This document shows, piece by piece, positions 14,198 through 22,440 of a stretch of 64,000 nucleotides of DNA. Below the pieces are notes generated by a model. It had not been told where the DNA came from. It saw nothing but the letters and a program-made list of their open reading frames with translations, and did no database searches. The stretch is from Rhodopirellula sp. (GTDB lineage Bacteria; Planctomycetota; Planctomycetia; Pirellulales; Pirellulaceae). Numbering within the stretch: position 1 is the first letter of the stretch; each line of letters starts with the position of its first letter. A program made the translations under genes and the position numbers. The stretch covers positions 276,608-340,607 of the forward strand of contig NZVD01000057.1 of the NCBI GenBank assembly GCA_002701385.1, in the 5' to 3' direction.

Positions 14198-15607
14198 TTA
14201 ACGTTTGGTCGTGCTAGTAGCTGCGGAGGCCGGAATAGGCTGCTTTTCAGCCTGTTCTGCACGAAAAACAAAAGACTCAATAATGTTTCGATCCTGTAAC
14301 TGAAACTGTGTCACTTTGTCACTGGGAATCGTAAATACAAACACGTATTGGTTTCCTGATAAGTCGGTGATGTGGTGATAGGCCCACTGATATGTGGCTT
14401 CCCCTACTAATCCCACGGCCGCAATGTGAGTCAGAGGATACTTGCCATGCAACCGTTCCTGACGAGAGTCGGTGATCTTGGCTAATTTGTCTCCCTGTGA
14501 CTTTTGAATTTGGTCTTTCAACAACTGGACGCTCATACGTTGGCCATCACGAAGTGGTTGTAGTCGGCTAAGGCTACATTGTGCCACCAATTCACCACGA
14601 ACCACCTGCCTCATGACTAGCAGTTCAGGCTGATCCATCATGACGTGCCAGTCCCGATTGAGTTTTAACTGGATCGAATTTACCTGGGGAATAAACTCGA
14701 GCATTTCATCGGATGCGATTATCGGGCGATCACACTTCTCGATAATCGAATCTGTCAAAGTCTTAAAAGAGTCTGTTGGTTGTAAGGCAACCACAATTCT
14801 GGCTTCAACATCCAGTCCTGGTTTGGCGTATCCGATCTCGCGTCGTTCTGACATTTCCAATGAGACTAGGGTGAAGCTATGGGTTGTCAGATTGTATTGT
14901 GCGGAAAGCTCAAGGTCGATTTGAGTGAGCACACCGTTGACACCTCCTCCGACACTTCCTTTACATACGATCTGTGCTTCATTAGCCGTGACCGATTGGA
15001 GTGTTGCTGAAATATCGCTTTGAGCCACAGCATCCAATGTAAGTAATGCTGAGAGGTCAGCCTCATCCAATTGCCACTGGTCACCCTGCATCACAGGTCC
15101 TGGCGGGAGGAGCTTGTAGAACACGGTCGGACTGAGCTGTACATCAAGCAAGTCTAGTTCATCGCGCGTCAGCATTCCCTGTGGCGAATAGAGGCGATGC
15201 TGTTGATTTTGATACTGGTCAACAACGAGTCTGCGTTCTTTACGTAATTGATGCGATAGTTCGCCTTCACCAATGCTTACATTCGATTCCAGGTTTTGAT
15301 AATACCGAATCGCTCGGCATAACTGGGTAGCTCGTTGAAAGGAGAGCCGTTGCTCATAGTTTTGCTTTCCATGAACTTTCACGCGTTGGTCCACAACGCC
15401 GAATCTTGCCGACTTGATTTTGACCACCCCCTGAACATCTACAGAAACATCGACTTGCTGACGTAGTGGTTCGTCCTCGGGCTGAAGCAGATAGGTTTGA
15501 GCCTGGAGTACCTGTCCCGGCATAAGAGCGCACGCCGAGAACAAACTGATCATGGAAGTGACCAGAAGCTTTCTGCGTAGGTGCTGGCGTGATTGCTTCT
15601 TAACCAT
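14198..15607 (-). CDS. exported protein of unknown function
   Basis: This 469-residue product has a basic N-terminus and a hydrophobic core (about residues 14-30), typical of a signal peptide. The following sequence is beta-strand-like and is rich in Gln, Ser and Val. I do not recognise a domain. The frame is open from 15643, but ATG 15607 is chosen because it places the signal peptide at the N-terminus. It lies upstream of the LysM gene on the same strand and could share its transcript, suggesting an envelope role. Confidence 0.65.
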   Translation of the reverse strand: MVKKQSRQHLRRKLLVTSMISLFSACALMPGQVLQAQTYLLQPEDEPLRQQVDVSVDVQGVVKIKSARFGVVDQRVKVHGKQNYEQRLSFQRATQLCRAIRYYQNLESNVSIGEGELSHQLRKERRLVVDQYQNQQHRLYSPQGMLTRDELDLLDVQLSPTVFYKLLPPGPVMQGDQWQLDEADLSALLTLDAVAQSDISATLQSVTANEAQIVCKGSVGGGVNGVLTQIDLELSAQYNLTTHSFTLVSLEMSERREIGYAKPGLDVEARIVVALQPTDSFKTLTDSIIEKCDRPIIASDEMLEFIPQVNSIQLKLNRDWHVMMDQPELLVMRQVVRGELVAQCSLSRLQPLRDGQRMSVQLLKDQIQKSQGDKLAKITDSRQERLHGKYPLTHIAAVGLVGEATYQWAYHHITDLSGNQYVFVFTIPSDKVTQFQLQDRNIIESFVFRAEQAEKQPIPASAATSTTKR

Positions 15608-16266
15608 TGAGTTTACATATCGTTGTGATTGGCTAGCGGGCAAATCGAGAGAACATCATGAGGCATTGCTTGAATTGCTTCATGGTTGTTTCGAATTAAG
15701 CGCGCATGGGCGGTTGTCACCGGAATGTCATAAACGGACCGGTTAATCGGTAAATCGACGTATAAACAGCCCTTTGTTAAGGCAATTTAGCTGCGCAGCA
15801 GGGATATCGAGGTGTTTTCAGTGTTTTGGCAGGCTCTCGGAATCCTCAGTTTTTCATAAAAACTGGTCTATATGTTCTCAAACCACTGTTTTTTTAGACT
15901 CATTTAGTAACAAATCGAGTGGTTGGCGAGTGAGAATTAGGTGCACCAAGCGTTGTTTAGCTACTTACTTATAGGGAAAAGCTTGACAAGGCCTTTATAA
16001 TGAATGTGTCATCTCGTAAGTAGCAGATTGGACACTTTAGTTAGCCAAACTAGAGCAGCCTCAAAGCTACTACGGTTATCAGGGGCTCACCACACGAGAC
16101 GGCAACATAAGATTCCTGATTTGCGTGACGACACTTTGTAACTGTTTTTGGTAGCAATCGACTGTTGAAGTCTTGGGAAGGACTTTTGATCGCCGTATTG
16201 CTCATCAGTCAAAGGGTGCGTTCACATGGAACAGCAACCAGGAGTCTGGCAGAGAAGGGAATAGCC
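15608..16266. other. divergent intergenic region upstream of the sigma-factor gene
   Basis: This 659-base spacer separates the minus-strand exported protein from the plus-strand sigma factor. It is AT-rich around 15840-16010. It holds a small palindrome, CAGTTTTT-CAT-AAAAACTG (15847-15865), a TTGACA (15983-15988) and a TATAAT (15996-16001). The last two are only 7 bases apart and cannot form one standard promoter. Promoters for both genes are expected here. No convincing coding frame was seen. Confidence 0.5.
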
Positions 16267-17940
16267 ATGAACTCATCTTACCGTAGTAGTGCGCTGCGCG
16301 AATTGCGAGACGCATTAGCGTCTGTTAGCGATCGTGAAGTCATCTTGCTCTACGTCAATCGTACAGAGAAGCTGATATACGATATCCCCGGCGATCAGTC
16401 GTTCTCATTTGGATACCTCTATAGTCGAATTACCGGCCAAAGTGATAGGCCGGTCGGAGTGGACTCAAAGCTGAAGCTTGATAGCCAAGACATTCAACAC
16501 GATTTGCGATTACTTGTCGAAGATCTAACCGAAGGAATTAGTCTTACAGCAGACGAGATCATCGAGCCTGTCTATACGGTTCAGACTTTGAGTGTTCATT
16601 TGCAAGTTTCATCCAAGACTATTTCCCGTTGGCGAAATAACGGATTAGTAAGTCGCAAGATTATCATCCAAGGACGTAAGCGTGTCGCGTTCACTCGTAC
16701 GAGCGTTGATACGTTTATTTCAAACAATCGAGAACGAGTATCTCGCGGCGAGAAATTCAGTCAGCTTTCTGATTCGGAGAAGAGCGAGATTTTACTGCAT
16801 GCTCGCCAACTTGCTGCCACCGGCGCCTGCCCTTCAGAAACAGCTCGACAGGTTGCAGACCATTTTGCACGAAGCATCGAAACCATACGTTATACGCTCA
16901 AACGCCATGACATCGATCATCCTGATTCGGCGATATTCCCTCGGGCTCGAGGCAAACTGTCTGAAGAATCCAAACGAAGTATCTTCCAGCGGTTCAATGG
17001 TGGTACCAGCGTGGCGATGCTAGCAAGGCAATTCAATCGAACGGCTTCAACAATCCATCGAGTCATCAATGAGATGCGTCGCGTTGCGATTATGGAATTG
17101 CCTTTAGATTTCATGCATTCGGATGAATTCAGTCGCCGAGGTGCCGAAAGAAGAATCATGGCTCCGATCCCTGAACCAGAAACGACACCCCGCCGGACGC
17201 GAGCCCCAAAAGAGCTTCCATCCTACTTATCATCGCTGTACGAAGTTCCATTGCTGACTCGAGCTCAGGAACAGCATTTATTCCGTAAGTACAACTACAC
17301 GAAGTACCGCGCTGCGAAACTAAGGTTGATGTTTGAGAAAACGGACGAGCATTCCTTAATGGACGAAATCGAATCGTGGTGGGAATCAGCTGTGGCATTG
17401 AAGCAGATGATTGTCCGGTCAAACCTACGACTGGTTGTCTCGATTGCCAAGCGGCATATGAAAGCGACGGAAGATTTCTTCACGCTTGTGAGTGATGGCA
17501 ACATGTCCTTGATTCGTGCGGCGGAGAAATTCAACTATCTGTTAGGAAACAAATTCTCAACGTATGCCTCCTGGGCCATTATGAAAAACTTTGCTCGGAC
17601 GATTCCCAACGAATTTCGTCATCGCGATCGATTCCGAACCAGTCTGGAAGAAGCCTTTATTCTTCAGGATGATCCTCGAACGAGTCGCCAGCAATTGGAA
17701 TTGGAAGACGAGAATCGCAAATTAGCGATCAGCAGTATCCTGACTCAATTGGATGACCGAGAGCAGAAGATTATCATCAGTCGCTTTGGTTTGTCACCCG
17801 GACGCGAGCCTCAGACACTCCAGCAGGTTGGCGAGGAGATTGGCGTGACCAAGGAACGGGTTCGACAAATTGAAGCCAAGGCGTTGAGAAAGCTGCGTCG
17901 TGAAGCGACTGTGGAGCATATGGAGTTGATTGAGAATTAA
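16267..17940 (+). CDS. sigma-70 family RNA polymerase sigma factor with N-terminal HTH modules
   Basis: The 557-residue protein directs RNA polymerase to promoters. Its C-terminal half has sigma region 1.2 (about 319-353), region 2 (383-450, with NLRLVVSIAKRH and FSTYASWAI) and region 4 (489-546, with VTKERVRQIEAKALRKLR). Region 4 follows region 2 after about 40 residues, so region 3 seems to be missing. The N-terminal 300 residues are unusual. They contain a MerR/excisionase-like HTH (103-150, LSVHLQVSSKTISRWRNNG) and two further HTH-like units (about 165-215 and 230-275). ATG 16267 has an AAGGGA site 6 bases upstream. The frame stays open to 16165 without a better start. Confidence 0.87.
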   Translation: MNSSYRSSALRELRDALASVSDREVILLYVNRTEKLIYDIPGDQSFSFGYLYSRITGQSDRPVGVDSKLKLDSQDIQHDLRLLVEDLTEGISLTADEIIEPVYTVQTLSVHLQVSSKTISRWRNNGLVSRKIIIQGRKRVAFTRTSVDTFISNNRERVSRGEKFSQLSDSEKSEILLHARQLAATGACPSETARQVADHFARSIETIRYTLKRHDIDHPDSAIFPRARGKLSEESKRSIFQRFNGGTSVAMLARQFNRTASTIHRVINEMRRVAIMELPLDFMHSDEFSRRGAERRIMAPIPEPETTPRRTRAPKELPSYLSSLYEVPLLTRAQEQHLFRKYNYTKYRAAKLRLMFEKTDEHSLMDEIESWWESAVALKQMIVRSNLRLVVSIAKRHMKATEDFFTLVSDGNMSLIRAAEKFNYLLGNKFSTYASWAIMKNFARTIPNEFRHRDRFRTSLEEAFILQDDPRTSRQQLELEDENRKLAISSILTQLDDREQKIIISRFGLSPGREPQTLQQVGEEIGVTKERVRQIEAKALRKLRREATVEHMELIEN

Positions 17941-17994
17941 ATTCTCAGTTGGACTCTTCTTGATTAGTCTCGCCCGAATTTATCTATAGAAGGA

Positions 17995-18058
17995 CCAAGC
18001 CGAAGGCCATGACGGTGCTACTGCGCTGCCATGGCGCATTGGCCCTCTTGGTTTGTTG
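17995..18058 (+). terminator. probable terminator after the sigma-factor gene
   Basis: CCAAG (17995-17999) pairs with CTTGG (18047-18051), and an inner GGCCA pairs with TGGCC. TTTGTTG follows. The stem is interrupted, so this is a fair but not certain intrinsic terminator. Confidence 0.45.
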
Positions 18059-18180
18059 TACGGCTGTTTAACTGTTGAATTGTTCGATTTTTCCTGCATT
18101 CTCCGCTTCACAGGTCCGATGGGCAGGTATATTTTGGTTCTATACCATTATTGAAACTGCTAACTCTGTGAAGTCTCATA

Positions 18181-18208
18181 TTGCAGAAGTGGTTGTTTTC
18201 GGTATATT
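18181..18208 (+). promoter_or_regulatory. candidate promoter of the tRNA-tuf operon
   Basis: TTGCAG (18181-18186) and TATATT (18203-18208) are 16 bases apart. Transcription would start about 50 bases before the first tRNA. The -10 matches 5 of 6 consensus bases and the -35 only 3. The rest of the 326-base spacer (17941-18266) holds only the probable terminator. Confidence 0.4.
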
Positions 18209-18266
18209 TACACGTTTTACCGGTTGGGCAATTCCCGTTTGGGGGTCTAGGCTGGTAAACAGGTAG

Positions 18267-18339
18267 GCCACTGTAGCTCAATTGGCAGAGCAGCTGATTT
18301 GTAATCAGCAGGTTAAGGGTTCGATTCCCTTCGGTGGCT
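18267..18339 (+). tRNA. tRNA-Thr (TGT)
   Basis: The 73-base cloverleaf has the acceptor pair GCCACTG/CGGTGGC and the anticodon stem GCTGA/TCAGC with loop TTTGTAA (anticodon TGT). The T-arm is GGTTCGATTCC. CCA is not encoded. It is the first of four clustered tRNA genes upstream of tuf. Confidence 0.97.
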
Positions 18340-18414
18340 CTCGTGAAAAGCGGGTTCCGGTCTATTAAAGACTCTAGTAGTCTGATGGGTTTGAACTTAA
18401 ATAGAACGATAACC

Positions 18415-18496
18415 GGTGGGTTTCCCGAGCGGTCAAAGGGGTCAGACTGTAAATCTGATGGCAGTGCCTTCGAAGGTTCGAATCCTTCACCCACCA
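18415..18496 (+). tRNA. tRNA-Tyr (GTA)
   Basis: This 82-base class II tRNA has the acceptor pair GGTGGGT/ACCCACC and the anticodon stem TCAGA/TCTGA with loop CTGTAAA (anticodon GTA). It carries the long variable arm typical of tyrosine tRNA. CCA is not encoded. Confidence 0.97.
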
Positions 18497-18689
18497 CTTA
18501 AAGGGTTTTCCTCGCAATAACTGGAATACAATTGACTGGCGGATTGGTGCGATTTATAGAGCACTAATTGTCAGTCGATTTATTTTTGGATTCTTGCTGA
18601 AAAGCCTCTTATCAGTATCCCCTTTTTTGCGTAAAAATAGAGGATTACTGCACATTGTGTATGGGTGTCATTGCGCACTGTAAAAGATT

Positions 18690-18760
18690 GCGGGTGTAGC
18701 TCAATGGTAGAGCCACAGCCTTCCAAGCTGAAGACGAGGGTTCGATTCCCTTCACCCGCT
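18690..18760 (+). tRNA. tRNA-Gly (TCC)
   Basis: The 71-base cloverleaf has the acceptor pair GCGGGTG/CACCCGC and loop CTTCCAA (anticodon TCC). The first anticodon-stem pair is an A-A mismatch, leaving four pairs (CAGC/GCTG). CCA is not encoded. Confidence 0.96.
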
Positions 18761-18816
18761 CTTCCTGTCTCAATGTGTTTTGATCTGTCATGGGTCAAAG
18801 GCGCCAAGGCGGCTCA

Positions 18817-18889
<73 letters not shown>

Positions 18890-19069
18890 CTTTAGCTGGT
18901 TTCGTGTTATTCACGAGGCCGGTAAATACAGACGTTACTAAGTTCAACCGAACTTTCGGAGGCATCTCTGTTTTTTGCAGCGAGTCTTTTAGGGGTTGGA
19001 AGAGCTTTATAAAATATTTAATTCCGTCGGAAACGACACAATATCATTTTCAGAAGATAGGTAAAGGAA

Positions 19070-20263
19070 ATGGCCAAGGAGACTTTCGAACGTACAAAAC
19101 CCCATGTCAACGTGGGTACGATCGGCCACATTGACCATGGTAAAACAACTACCACTGGTGCGATTCTTGCAGTGCAAGCTGAAAAGGGTCTGGCTGAACA
19201 CAAGGATTATTCCGAGATTGCAAAAGGTGGTACAGTTCGTGACGAAACTAAGACTGTTACCATTGCTGTGGCTCACGTTGAGTATGAAAGTGAAGTTCGT
19301 CACTATGCTCACATTGACTGTCCTGGACACGCTGACTTCATTAAAAACATGATTACCGGTGCTGCTCAGATGGACGGAGCGATTTTGGTGGTCTCTGCTG
19401 CTGATGGCCCAATGCCTCAGACTAAAGAGCACGTTTTGCTTGCCAAGCAGGTGGACGTACCAGCAATCGTTGTATTCCTTAACAAATGTGACCTCGTTGA
19501 TGACGAAGAGCTACTGGAATTGGTTGAAATTGAAGTTCGTGAACTTCTAAGCAAGTACGACTTTGATGGTGACAATGCAGTAATCGTTCGCGGTTCAGCG
19601 TTGCCTGCATACCAAAACCCAGGTGACCCAGGTGCTTCTGCCTGTATTACTGAATTAGTTGAAGCAATCGATGCTAATGTCCCGGAACCAGATCGTGACG
19701 AAGACAAGCCATTCCTGATGGCCATCGAAGACGTCTTCTCGATCGAAGGTCGTGGAACTGTTGCAACCGGTCGTATCGAGCGTGGTGTGATCAATGTTGG
19801 CGACGAAGTTGAAATCATCGGACTTAAAGACACTCACACCACGACTTGTACTGGTGTTGAAATGTTCCGCAAGTTGCTCGATAAGGGTATGGCTGGTGAC
19901 AATGTTGGGTGTCTGCTTCGTGGTGTTAAGCGAGAAGATATTGAGCGTGGTCAGGTACTGGCTGCTCCTGGTAGTATCAATCCTCACTTCAAATTTGAAG
20001 GTGAAGTGTACTGCTTGAGTAAAGAAGAAGGTGGACGTCATACTCCATTCTTCAGTGGATACCGTCCTCAGTTCTTCTTCCGTACGACAGACGTAACCGG
20101 TACTGCAAACCTGCAGGGCGCTGAAATGTGCATGCCTGGTGACAATGTCAAAATGGAAGTTGAGCTACACAAGCCGATCGCGATGGACGAAGGTGTTCGC
20201 TTCGCTATTCGTGAAGGTGGTCGAACCGTAGGTTCTGGCGTAGTAACCAAGATTGTCGAGTAA
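19070..20263 (+). CDS. tuf: elongation factor Tu
   Basis: EF-Tu brings aminoacyl-tRNA to the ribosome as a GTP complex. The 397-residue protein has G1 GHIDHGKT (residues 19-26), DCPGH (about 83-87) and NKCD in the G domain, followed by normal domains 2 and 3. The switch I loop is unusual: where most bacteria have an EEKARGITI-type sequence, this protein has [14 protein letters not shown] (52-65), keeping only the terminal Thr-Ile. An AAAGG site precedes ATG 19070. It lies in a tRNA-Thr/Tyr/Gly/Thr-tuf-Trp array and is the only tuf in the window. Confidence 0.98.
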
Positions 20264-20285
20264 TTTTACTCGGCATTCTTTAAAC

Positions 20286-20358
20286 AGGGGTGTAGCTCAA
20301 TTGGCAGAGCACTGGTTTCCAAAACCAGCGGTTGCGGGTTCAAGTCCCTCCGCCCCTG
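20286..20358 (+). tRNA. tRNA-Trp (CCA)
   Basis: The 73-base cloverleaf has the acceptor pair AGGGGTG/CGCCCCT and the anticodon stem CTGGT/ACCAG with loop TTCCAAA (anticodon CCA). Unlike the other four tRNAs here, the 3' CCA is encoded (20359-20361). It starts 22 bases after tuf and is probably cotranscribed with it. Confidence 0.97.
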
Positions 20359-20361
20359 CCA

Positions 20362-20734
20362 TATAATCCTTGATCCGAGCTGCAGGATTGACACCTGCTT
20401 CTCGGGTTGGGGAACTTAAAATTTGAATATTTAACACTGATTTACTCATCGTACGAGATGGATCTGTTACACGTACGAGAGTTTCCACCGCAAGGTGGAC
20501 AGCGCAATCCGAACGCTGGATGATGATTCGGGGATTGTGTTGAAATAGAGTCAGGGTCGCAGGGAAACCTCGACAGAAAATCTGATTCTAGTTGGCCTGA
20601 TGGACTCAGCCGGGATTATCACAGCGGGAAACTGTGGTAGCACTCACTGAATTCTATTGCTTCTGAGGCTGAGTAGTCGGTTAGTAACCCGAGTTCTATA
20701 TGGATTCGGATATTAATTGGATGACAACGACGTA
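20362..20734 (+). other. secE leader region with hairpin and direct repeat
   Basis: This 373-base spacer has no convincing gene. CGTACGAGA occurs twice (20450-20458 and 20472-20480), 22 bases apart, about two helical turns. Just downstream TCCACC-GCAA-GGTGGA (20484-20499) forms a 6-pair hairpin with a GNRA tetraloop. These could be an operator and an RNA element in the secE-nusG leader. No good promoter was recognised. Confidence 0.45.
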
Positions 20735-21211
20735 ATGTCCAAAAACCCAAATTCGCAGTCTTCTGCTAAATCAGATCAGGCTGTTGTCAATGAATCGCTG
20801 TTTAAGACTTTGTTGAGTGCCACTCGGCACCGTCCCACCATGGGATTGGTGACGCGGCGAACGACAATGTTGACATTATTTATTGTATTTGGGCTGGGGA
20901 TATGGTCACTCAACATCTGGGCCACAAGTAATTCACAGAACGAGTTTCTGATGAATAACGGAAATACTATTTGTGGAGTCCTGGCAGTGGCTTCTATCTG
21001 GTTTAGTTACCGCATTGTGCACTGGTTCAAATTCGCTGAATTTCTGATCGCAGTGCAGAACGAAATGACCAAAGTATCTTGGCCCAAACGCCCGGAGCTT
21101 CTGCGTAGTTCATTCGTTGTGATCTTAACAATGTTTTTATTTACAGCAGCTTTATTCGGGTATGACCTGATCTGGCAGTTGTTATTGCGGGCCATCGGTA
21201 TCACCGCCTAA
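20735..21211 (+). CDS. secE: preprotein translocase subunit SecE
   Basis: SecE is the small subunit of the SecYEG channel. The 158-residue protein has three hydrophobic segments (about 45-63, 79-95 and 124-152). Before the last is the conserved amphipathic SecE motif, NEMTKVSWPKRPEL (109-122). The three-helix form resembles E. coli SecE rather than the one-helix form. A TTG at 20717 would add six residues. ATG 20735 is preferred, but neither has a strong ribosome-binding site. nusG follows, as in most bacteria. Confidence 0.93.
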   Translation: MSKNPNSQSSAKSDQAVVNESLFKTLLSATRHRPTMGLVTRRTTMLTLFIVFGLGIWSLNIWATSNSQNEFLMNNGNTICGVLAVASIWFSYRIVHWFKFAEFLIAVQNEMTKVSWPKRPELLRSSFVVILTMFLFTAALFGYDLIWQLLLRAIGITA

Positions 21212-21348
21212 TTGCGGCATACAGGTACGACCCTCAGACCAACCCCTCTTTACATTCCTGAACTACGTGTCTGTTTTGTGAAGAATGAGCCAACCAAGCT
21301 GTAGCCTGGCAGACATGTCAGGAGTATTTGTGTTTCGGAGTTTTAACC

Positions 21349-22440
21349 GTGAACGAATTTCAAGACGAATCCAATGAGTCGTTAGAACCACAGGCGGATC
21401 CAATGCCTGAGGCTGGCGAGAATATTTCTCAGGACTCTCAAGAATCTCAAGATTCACAACAGGACACTCAGGAATCCGCTCCTGGAGTATCTGGCTCTGA
21501 TACCGTGGAATCAGCAGAACCTGCTCAACCGGAAGACGAGTCCTCCGAGCAAGTCGAAGCAGCACCTAGCGAACAGCCTGACGAGATTGACGGCGAAGTA
21601 GTTGACGAAGTCGAAGAAGAAGCGGAAACCGAGGCAGAAACCGAGTCAGACAACAGCACTGAAGATGCTGACGAGGCGACTGAAGCAGAAGCTGTAGAAG
21701 AAGACAGCTCGACTGAAGAAGCGGAAGCCGAGGATGATGGCAACGACGAAGCTCCGGAAGAAGTTGCTGAGGAAGTCGTGGAACCGGAAGCTGAAGCTGA
21801 GCCTGAACCAGAGCCTGAAACCGAGTCAGATGACAGTGCTGAAGATGCGCCTTTCGACCCACATAACATTCCCAAGAAATATGACAGCCAAACTTTTGAG
21901 TGGTACATCCTGAAAGTTCAGGTGAATCGTGAAACTTCGATTCGCGATGGATTATTACGACGCATCAAGATGGAAGGCTTAGAGGAATACTTTGAAGAAG
22001 TAATCGTTCCGACCGAAGACATTGTCGAGTTCACTCGCAGTGGAAAACGTAAAGTCGTCAAACGCAAGCTCTACCCTGGTTACATCATGGTCAATATGAT
22101 GTTGCAGGATGACTCGTGGTTCCTTGTTCGTGAGACTCCAGGGATCGGTGATTTCACCGGAACGTTAGGAAAGCCCTCGCCAATGCCGGCCGATGAAGTG
22201 GAACGCATCCTGAGTGTCGCTCAGCCTGAAGAAGAGGCGGATGGAGAAGAACCGCAATTGAAAACTGCGATTCCTTTCAAGGCAGGTGACCGGGTTCGCG
22301 TGAAGGATGGAAACTTCCAAAACTTCGAAGGTGAAGTAGATGGTATTGACGAAGCCAACGGCCGAGTTACTCTAATCATCAACATCTTCGGTCGAAGTAC
22401 GCCAGTGGAACTTGAACACTGGCAAATTGAAGAGATTTAA
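21349..22440 (+). CDS. nusG: transcription factor NusG with long acidic N-terminal extension
   Basis: NusG binds RNA polymerase and links it to Rho or the ribosome. The NGN domain begins near residue 183 (FEWYILKVQVNRE), and a C-terminal KOW domain follows (FKAGDRVRVKDGNFQNFEG). At 363 residues the protein is twice the usual length because of about 175 N-terminal residues. These are rich in Glu, Asp, Ser and Ala and have no Lys or Arg before residue 176. A motif ETESD(N/D)S(T/A)EDA is repeated within it (about 97-107 and 157-167). GTG 21349 is chosen for its CGGAG site 8 bases upstream. A TTG at 21328 is possible. Confidence 0.95.
   Translation: MNEFQDESNESLEPQADPMPEAGENISQDSQESQDSQQDTQESAPGVSGSDTVESAEPAQPEDESSEQVEAAPSEQPDEIDGEVVDEVEEEAETEAETESDNSTEDADEATEAEAVEEDSSTEEAEAEDDGNDEAPEEVAEEVVEPEAEAEPEPEPETESDDSAEDAPFDPHNIPKKYDSQTFEWYILKVQVNRETSIRDGLLRRIKMEGLEEYFEEVIVPTEDIVEFTRSGKRKVVKRKLYPGYIMVNMMLQDDSWFLVRETPGIGDFTGTLGKPSPMPADEVERILSVAQPEEEADGEEPQLKTAIPFKAGDRVRVKDGNFQNFEGEVDGIDEANGRVTLIINIFGRSTPVELEHWQIEEI

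Follow-up and report, generated by a model that had tools for sequence, protein, structure and literature searches.

Sigma factors and transcription activators usually occur as different proteins, and within the sigma70 family region 3 provides the extended -10 contacts and the sigma finger. ECF factors are defined as holding only regions 2 and 4, without regions 1.2 and 3, and in regulators of the MerR family a dimerising helix and an effector part come after the helix-turn-helix (HTH). Planctomycete ECFs with N-terminal extensions form the groups ECF87-89, of which none has been studied experimentally according to a review (PMC8103513). The protein reported here is encoded in the window, the 64,000-nucleotide stretch of Rhodopirellula sp. 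(Pirellulales) DNA that was analysed, and joins an array of three HTHs to sigma regions 1.2, 2 and 4 in one chain (HTH-array sigma). No description of this architecture was found in the literature searched, which comprised listings, the openings of abstracts and portions of PMC2754498, PMC8103513 and PMC8999054. We regard it as a so far undescribed variant of the sigma70 family, ECF87-89 being compared by description only.

Gene model and domain layout

The open reading frame is genuine. Its ATG is preceded by AGAAGGGAATAGCC, and a start ATG at the equivalent position, giving a protein of 556-557 residues, is present in 8 of 8 orthologs compared. The features of the gene and its surroundings are collected in Table 1.

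Table 1. Features of the HTH-array sigma gene and its surroundings, in window positions. NTD, N-terminal domain.
Feature	Position	Strand	Basis or remark
TTGACA-N7-TATAAT, 284 bp before the ATG	15983..16001	+	conserved across the window's genus; also ahead of this gene in L047, L049, L080
Leader hairpin, possibly a degenerate copy (GTG-CGTT-CAC then ATGGA)	16216..16230 (within about 16188-16253)	+	alignment; unmatched by covariance models
HTH-array sigma protein, whole CDS, 557 aa	16267..17940	+	ORF, Pfam, AlphaFold2
NTD, residues 1-97, helices and short strands	16267..16557	+	models, profiles
HTH1, winged, MerR/excisionase/BldC-like, residues 98-160	16558..16746	+	model, fold comparison, alignment
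HTH2, tri-helical, residues 161-225	16747..16941	+	model, fold comparison, profiles
HTH3, tri-helical, residues 226-284	16942..17118	+	Pfam HTH_38 and Mor above cut-off, model
Pre-sigma segment, residues 285-316, small helix	17119..17214	+	model, alignment
Sigma region 1.2, residues 317-357	17215..17337	+	alignment, model
Sigma region 2, residues 377-452	17395..17622	+	Pfam, alignment, residue conservation
Linker where region 3 would lie, residues 453-485, modelled as disordered in part	17623..17721	+	model, alignment
Sigma region 4, residues 486-550	17722..17916	+	Pfam, model, residue conservation
tRNA-Thr, Tyr, Gly, Thr, tuf, tRNA-Trp (downstream neighbours)	18267..20361	+	sequence reading

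In the window protein, Pfam Sigma70_r2 (residues 382-440) scores 39.2 bits against a cut-off of 24 and Sigma70_r4 (residues 492-544) 66 bits against 24.1, which places the protein in the sigma70 superfamily. HTH_38 (230-267) and Mor (223-275) also exceed their cut-offs. Around residues 102-154, HTH_17 (23 against 27) and MerR_1 stay below theirs, and no Pfam family is above cut-off in the NTD. For the protein as a whole, RpoD_Cterm scores 137.2 bits against a cut-off of 354. Among 78 orthologs with pairwise identity below 75%, matches at E ≤ 0.01 were obtained for Sigma70_r4 in 75, Sigma70_r2 in 73, HTH_23 in 72, HTH_17 in 70 and HTH_28 in 67, counts that do not equal domain counts because some of the Sigma70_r4 matches fall on the HTHs. 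Profile-to-profile comparison aligns HTH2, HTH3 and region 4 to one another. Moreover, R121, G126 and L127 of HTH1 are invariant across the 78 sequences, and HTH2 of the window protein has a net charge of -2.

The AlphaFold2 model of the full-length protein (78-row alignment) has a pLDDT of 90.3 and a pTM of 0.59, and residues 1-284 folded alone give 93.6 and 0.73. HTH units are modelled at residues 102-153, with a beta wing (strands at 102-104, 130-134 and 137-143), 169-217 and 233-276. In the full model, small helices at 286-297 come next, then region 1.2, region 2, a disordered stretch at 451-471 (pLDDT below 50) and region 4. Against sigma70 chains this model matches over about residues 315-556 with Z values of about 14-15, the rmsd being mostly above 20 because of domain placement.

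For HTH1 (101-155), the fold comparison gives a phage terminase small subunit (7lwr; 53 residues, Z 8.0), the Xis protein of a phage (4j2n; Z 6.6) and BldC (6amk; Z 6.5), and sequence profiles concur (BldC 6amk, E 1.6e-4; 2lvs, E 7.6e-7). The model of HTH1 thus has the winged HTH fold of the MerR/BldC/Xis type. The protein does not have the layout of a MerR regulator, HTH1 being followed by HTH2 and HTH3 with no dimerising helix or effector part. HTH2 and HTH3 together (165-277) are similar in fold to the paired Myb repeats of Cdc5 (6jui; Z 7.3, 98 residues, rmsd 6.4), and HTH3 resembles sigma region 4 of BldN 6dxo (Z 6.8, rmsd 1.1 over 46 residues). HTH3 (229-282) also matches DeoR and resolvase HTHs, its best two matches being a yeast mitochondrial ribosomal subunit chain (8d8j and 8d8k, Z 8.1-8.2). 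Because of these ribosomal best matches, and because the Z values for the N-terminal model are middling, the fold alone is no proof of DNA binding. For residues 1-97, a range barely covered by the fold comparison, a structure match was not established. The 50 matches listed from a viral structure library are mostly phage sigma factors with low TM-scores.

A preliminary description of this locus had proposed three N-terminal HTH modules, the first of them MerR/excisionase-like, followed by sigma regions 1.2, 2 and 4. Structure prediction bears this out with HTH folds within residues 100-280; the winged model, the Xis and BldC fold matches and the frequency of HTH_17 among the orthologs agree on the nature of HTH1. 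Model and alignment show the three sigma regions, and Pfam shows regions 2 and 4. To that architecture the present analysis adds the folded domain 1-97 ahead of the HTH array.

Absence of region 3 and shorter paralogs

Region 3 was sought in the model and against the three RpoD-like proteins of the same genome, and it was not found. The stretch that follows region 2.4 in those proteins is absent from the window family, in which a linker, disordered in the model at 451-471, leads directly to region 4. The earlier suggestion that region 3 is apparently lacking is confirmed, none being present between residues 450 and 489, and the protein differs in this from the RpoD (group 1/2) type. The linker equivalent to residues 452-485 has 34 residues in 60 of the 78 orthologs, 23-33 in 15 and 0-15 in 3.

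Shorter sigma paralogs that have neither region 3 nor HTHs were observed in several families of the phylum (L169-L186). They measure 307-489 residues when the first ATG or GTG is taken as start, and their pre-sigma segment is similar to residues 285-316 of the window protein. Profiles of the NTD and the HTHs gave no convincing match in the stretch before their region 1.2. Since region 3 is missing from all 18 paralogs aligned, its lack is not special to the HTH-array sigma. In a FastTree phylogeny of the sigma core, whose inner branches are weak, 72 family members and the 18 paralogs stand apart from the RpoD-like proteins and L005 with a support of 0.75.

Distribution

The HTH-array sigma is encoded by one gene per genome. 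A match was obtained in 40 of 40 genomes (its own and relatives), extending from residue 5 or earlier to at least residue 547 in 37 of them and shortened in G014, G026 and G031. The closest named relative protein, among the best 80 of 408 relatives, is 97% identical and comes from an uncultured Pirellulaceae. With the N-terminal profile (E ≤ 1e-8, scoring at most 8 candidates in each genome), 113 of the 294 genomes of the phylum were matched, each by a single sequence except G238, where two matches on two contigs resemble halves of one gene. The match is confined to the first 84 residues in G047 and G084, and a few other genomes are partial too. At the level of the class the same profile matches 51 of 52 genomes, and the exception (G324) has an open reading frame with HTH3 and the sigma part only. 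A whole-protein search at E ≤ 1e-25 matched 112 of the 294 genomes, paralogs counted in. The N-terminus had no match in plasmids, and in phages the matches are confined to residues 319-551 (20 of 35 records listed).

Conservation of the HTH array where region 2 has decayed

The weight given here to individual sigma positions comes from the residue roles of E. coli sigma70. By these, 71 of the 78 aligned orthologs, that of the window included, have the core-binding and promoter-melting residues of a sigma70 factor and 7 do not. Among the 71, the counts are N386 70, L389 69, V390 70, G411 71, N412 67, F430 71, Y433 70, W436 68, E530 69 and R533 70, and the equivalent of W434 is Ala in 68. The HTH arginines are kept to a similar extent (R121 71, R123 66, R202 69, R208 70, R265 67, R271 65). 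In the window lineage, as we read these alignments, the sigma part would be under equally strong constraint.

In the other 7 orthologs (L159-L165), region 2 is without most of these residues; region 4 was not found in 6 of them, and L163 has one above the Pfam cut-off at 31.9 bits. To these were added 23 further N-terminal loci from families suspected of sigma decay, of which 22 were used, L209 being left out because the profile of residues 1-97 matched it too poorly. Profiles found the NTD in 22 of the 22 loci, HTH1 in 21, HTH2 in 22 and HTH3 in 19 (a 20th HTH3 match is weak and overlaps HTH2), with region 2 in 4 and a C-terminal region 4 in 12. In the resulting decayed set of 29, region 2 has diverged or was not found and region 4 is still present in 13.

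The arginines that lie within or next to the recognition helices are retained in this set: R121 in 28 of 29, R123 in 28, R202 in 26, R208 in 29, R265 in 25 and R271 in 26. E205 is kept in 26, R130 (17/29) and R137 (13/29) are poorly kept, and the mean pairwise identity of the N-terminal part is 0.31. Moreover, the positions that are at least 90% conserved in the 71 orthologs are retained in the first 7 decayed proteins at 0.88-0.92 in the NTD and HTHs versus 0.14-0.52 in the sigma parts, and in the other 22 at 0.72-0.88 versus 0.28-0.31. For these 22, the sigma columns come from addition to a frozen alignment and could be out of register, chiefly in region 4; the profile counts are more reliable. 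The decayed set was picked by the N-terminal profile and by suspicion of sigma decay, a choice in which loss of both halves is invisible. Also, these 29 proteins are not 29 events, and the losses may be few, because they come from few families and share descent. A separate observation concerns L187 and L188, both of one family of the phylum, which have the NTD and regions 1.2, 2 and 4 without the HTHs.

Because the HTH arginines are kept where region 2 has decayed, the array probably has a DNA-binding task of its own, which in 13 of the 29 would probably be partnered by region 4 only. The preliminary description had gone further and combined activator and sigma roles in one protein. A separate DNA-reading role of the array gains support from the retention of the arginines, and the joint action of both parts on one promoter is what we infer. 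This pattern of conservation suggests that one molecule may serve as activator and as sigma factor. Regions 1.2, 2 and 4 would bind core RNA polymerase and read elements of the -10/-35 type, and the three HTHs, led by the winged HTH1 with its invariant arginine, would bind an extra conserved site beside the promoter. The array would anchor the holoenzyme at that site and so compensate for the absent region 3, restricting this activator-sigma to few promoters, perhaps its own among them. We regard this one-piece activator-sigma as the reading with most support and give it roughly even odds (about 0.5); the 13 decayed proteins with region 4 leave them unchanged because core binding needs region 2. 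Against it speak the middling Z values, the poor retention of R130 and R137 in the decayed set, the negative net charge of HTH2 in the window protein and the lack of the upstream element described below in most orthologs.

Another reading is that the array is mainly regulatory, holding the sigma part inactive or sensing a partner, with no need for array-DNA contact in the choice of promoter. An extra folded domain does precede the array, the paralogs manage without HTHs, and for the N-terminal extensions of planctomycete ECFs a review (PMC8103513) suggests a different regulatory mechanism, not yet understood. However, the arginines within or next to the recognition helices persist even where the core-binding region that would have to be inhibited is degenerate, and we consider a mainly regulatory array unlikely. 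Just as improbable in our judgment is a protein that is primarily a three-HTH transcription factor, be it a repressor, an activator or a chromosome-organising protein, in which the sigma part is a recruiter or a relic and does not initiate alone. The 29 orthologs that keep the array with region 2 degenerate or not found would fit such a factor, but the near-invariance of the core-binding and -10/-35 residues in the 71 others, including the window's, would be surprising for a relic.

Upstream element and leader hairpin

Upstream of the gene, TTGACA-N7-TATAAT is kept without mismatch in the window's genus, and a GTCA block lies immediately 3' of it. A spacer of 7 bp is unsuited to a regular -35/-10 pair. 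In 1.66 Mb of sequence, consisting of the loci fetched around the sigma gene, the element occurs perfectly 12 times, always upstream of that gene: one genus accounts for 9 occurrences, a second group for 2 and a third for 1. Other spacers gave no match apart from spacer 16 (3 matches); with the scrambled pair, 1 match was obtained, at spacer 8. In the window's own genome the element occurs once, and so does the reversed control pattern. A promoter motif common to all orthologs was sought: the perfect form is confined to the window's genus, L047/L049 and L080, with mismatched look-alikes in L146, L153, L154 and L108. With a matrix built from such sites, 13 of 143 ortholog upstream regions score z > 3, and most are without the element. 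Inverted-repeat flanks around the element were spotted by eye, and they suggest an operator.

In many Pirellulales a bulged hairpin lies about 40-60 nt 5' of the start codon, with an outer stem, an inner stem GCGAY..RTCGC and a 3' bulge ANGGAACA; an example with the ANGGA bulge is found ahead of the sigma gene at L048:5936-5979. The 52 rows of the leader alignment were picked for ANGGA. Sequences forming 7 or more of the 11 outer pairs were selected, 14 in all, and in these 12 of 16 pairs have changed on both sides. A covariance search of 92 loci outside those 14 placed its top 19 matches all just upstream of the sigma gene, and the first match elsewhere has an E value of 0.26. Leaving aside one that equals a training sequence and 3 repeats, 15 of these 19 are distinct and new, all with ANGGA. 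The 33 matches fitted to the model, of which 30 are distinct, have both-side changes in 13 of 16 pairs; none of 500 shuffles attains their score, and in a sliding control the pairing falls from 92.7% to 30-41%. ANGGA is present in 30 of the 30 distinct matches, the model having been trained on ANGGA rows.

In whole genomes, leader model R1 matches 18 of the 57 genomes of the order at 19 places and gives no match in the other 39, the window's own included. Of five such matches for which the position of the sigma gene is known, four are adjacent to it and the exception is the weakest. Neither R1 nor R2 matches the window leader, and R2 also fails on most leaders of the Rhodopirellula/Stieleria type, whose inner stem is longer. 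Rfam at threshold gave tRNAs only in window positions 15600-21400 and ten loci, the leader having no family. CsrA binds ANGGA sites, and the window's own genome has four csrA matches; CsrA is therefore a candidate binder of the leader hairpin, judged from sequence.

These upstream features allow a more specific version of the activator-sigma, which we put forward tentatively. Here, the array would read a fixed site near unusual promoters, such as its own TTGACA-N7-TATAAT, and would replace region 3 and perhaps the normal -35 spacing. It could outlive the polymerase-binding part as a free transcription factor, and the level of the protein would be set by its dedicated leader hairpin.

Gene neighborhood

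The preliminary description had also pointed to tRNA-tuf neighbours. These are present in the window, where the tRNA-Trp gene is followed by secE, nusG and rpl/rpoBC genes (protein names read from the sequences), but the arrangement is not general. Counting loci with enough sequence only, tuf lies within 4.2 kb downstream in 31 of the 60 from Pirellulales, in 5 of 16 other loci at order or class level and in 0 of 23 other loci of the phylum. Because tuf is found in only part of the loci, the tRNA-tuf neighborhood is no pointer to a target. Upstream, a divergent gene (14198-15643, about 480 residues) is the neighbour of the sigma gene in 76 of 77 Pirellulales loci, and its product has no Pfam family at E ≤ 0.01.

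Three further observations concern the downstream side. The presumed nusG frame at 21328-22440 is extended at the N-terminus by a long acidic stretch of about 185 residues. Upstream of tRNA-Thr, an inverted repeat GGTATA-N9-TATACC (18126-18146), partly conserved in the genus, and a TTGCAG-N16-TATATT (18181-18208) ahead of tRNA-Thr/tuf, conserved in the genus, were spotted by eye. A consensus scan of the tRNA-Thr/tuf upstream region gave 3 promoter-like sites against a shuffle mean of 4.6, TTGCAG-N16-TATATT not being among them.

The 567-residue sigma factor RB12251 of Rhodopirellula baltica is reported as repressed under heat, cold and salt, along with EF-Tu and the ribosomal proteins. Its pI of 9.4 is near that of two Rhodopirellula MAG proteins (9.2-9.3), yet those have 557 residues, 0 of 8 orthologs has a start giving 567, and the text of the paper names the gene rfaY; its orthology is a lead only. 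As a guess, which this lead alone favours, the HTH-array sigma might have a role in growth or translation control.

Comparison with known sigma factors and HTH proteins

The HTH-array sigma points to an unstudied regulator of the Planctomycetota. A widely conserved single-gene fusion that comes with natural half-variants, namely L187/L188 with NTD and sigma part and the 29 others with the array and a decayed region 2, allows a direct test of an activator built into a sigma factor in place of region 3.

With the RpoD/SigA factors (groups 1-2), it shares regions 1.2, 2 and 4 and most of the core-binding, -10 and -35 residues. However, it is without region 3 and without the long insertion between regions 1.2 and 2, region 1.1 was not seen, the equivalent of W434 is mostly Ala, and the HTH array is present at the N-terminus. 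With the ECF factors (group 4), it has in common a region 2 followed by a short flexible linker and region 4, with no region 3, whereas residues 317-357 align with region 1.2, so that it does not consist of regions 2 and 4 only, region 2 is RpoD-like and a 284-residue N-terminal part holds the three HTHs. That it is an already reported planctomycete ECF with an N-terminal extension (original ECF87-89), and hence not new in kind, is hardly probable: such ECFs are known from Planctomycetes genomes (PMC8103513) and region 3 is absent as in ECFs, but region 1.2 and the RpoD-like region 2 set it apart from ECFs as these are defined.

The HTH-less paralogs of the Planctomycetota share with it regions 1.2, 2 and 4, the pre-sigma segment and the absence of region 3, and differ in having no convincing match to the NTD or the HTHs. 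Finally, BldC, phage Xis and the terminase small subunit have in common with it the winged fold of HTH1 (about residues 97-160). Their solved chains are short separate domains, whereas HTH1 is one of three HTHs inside a sigma factor.
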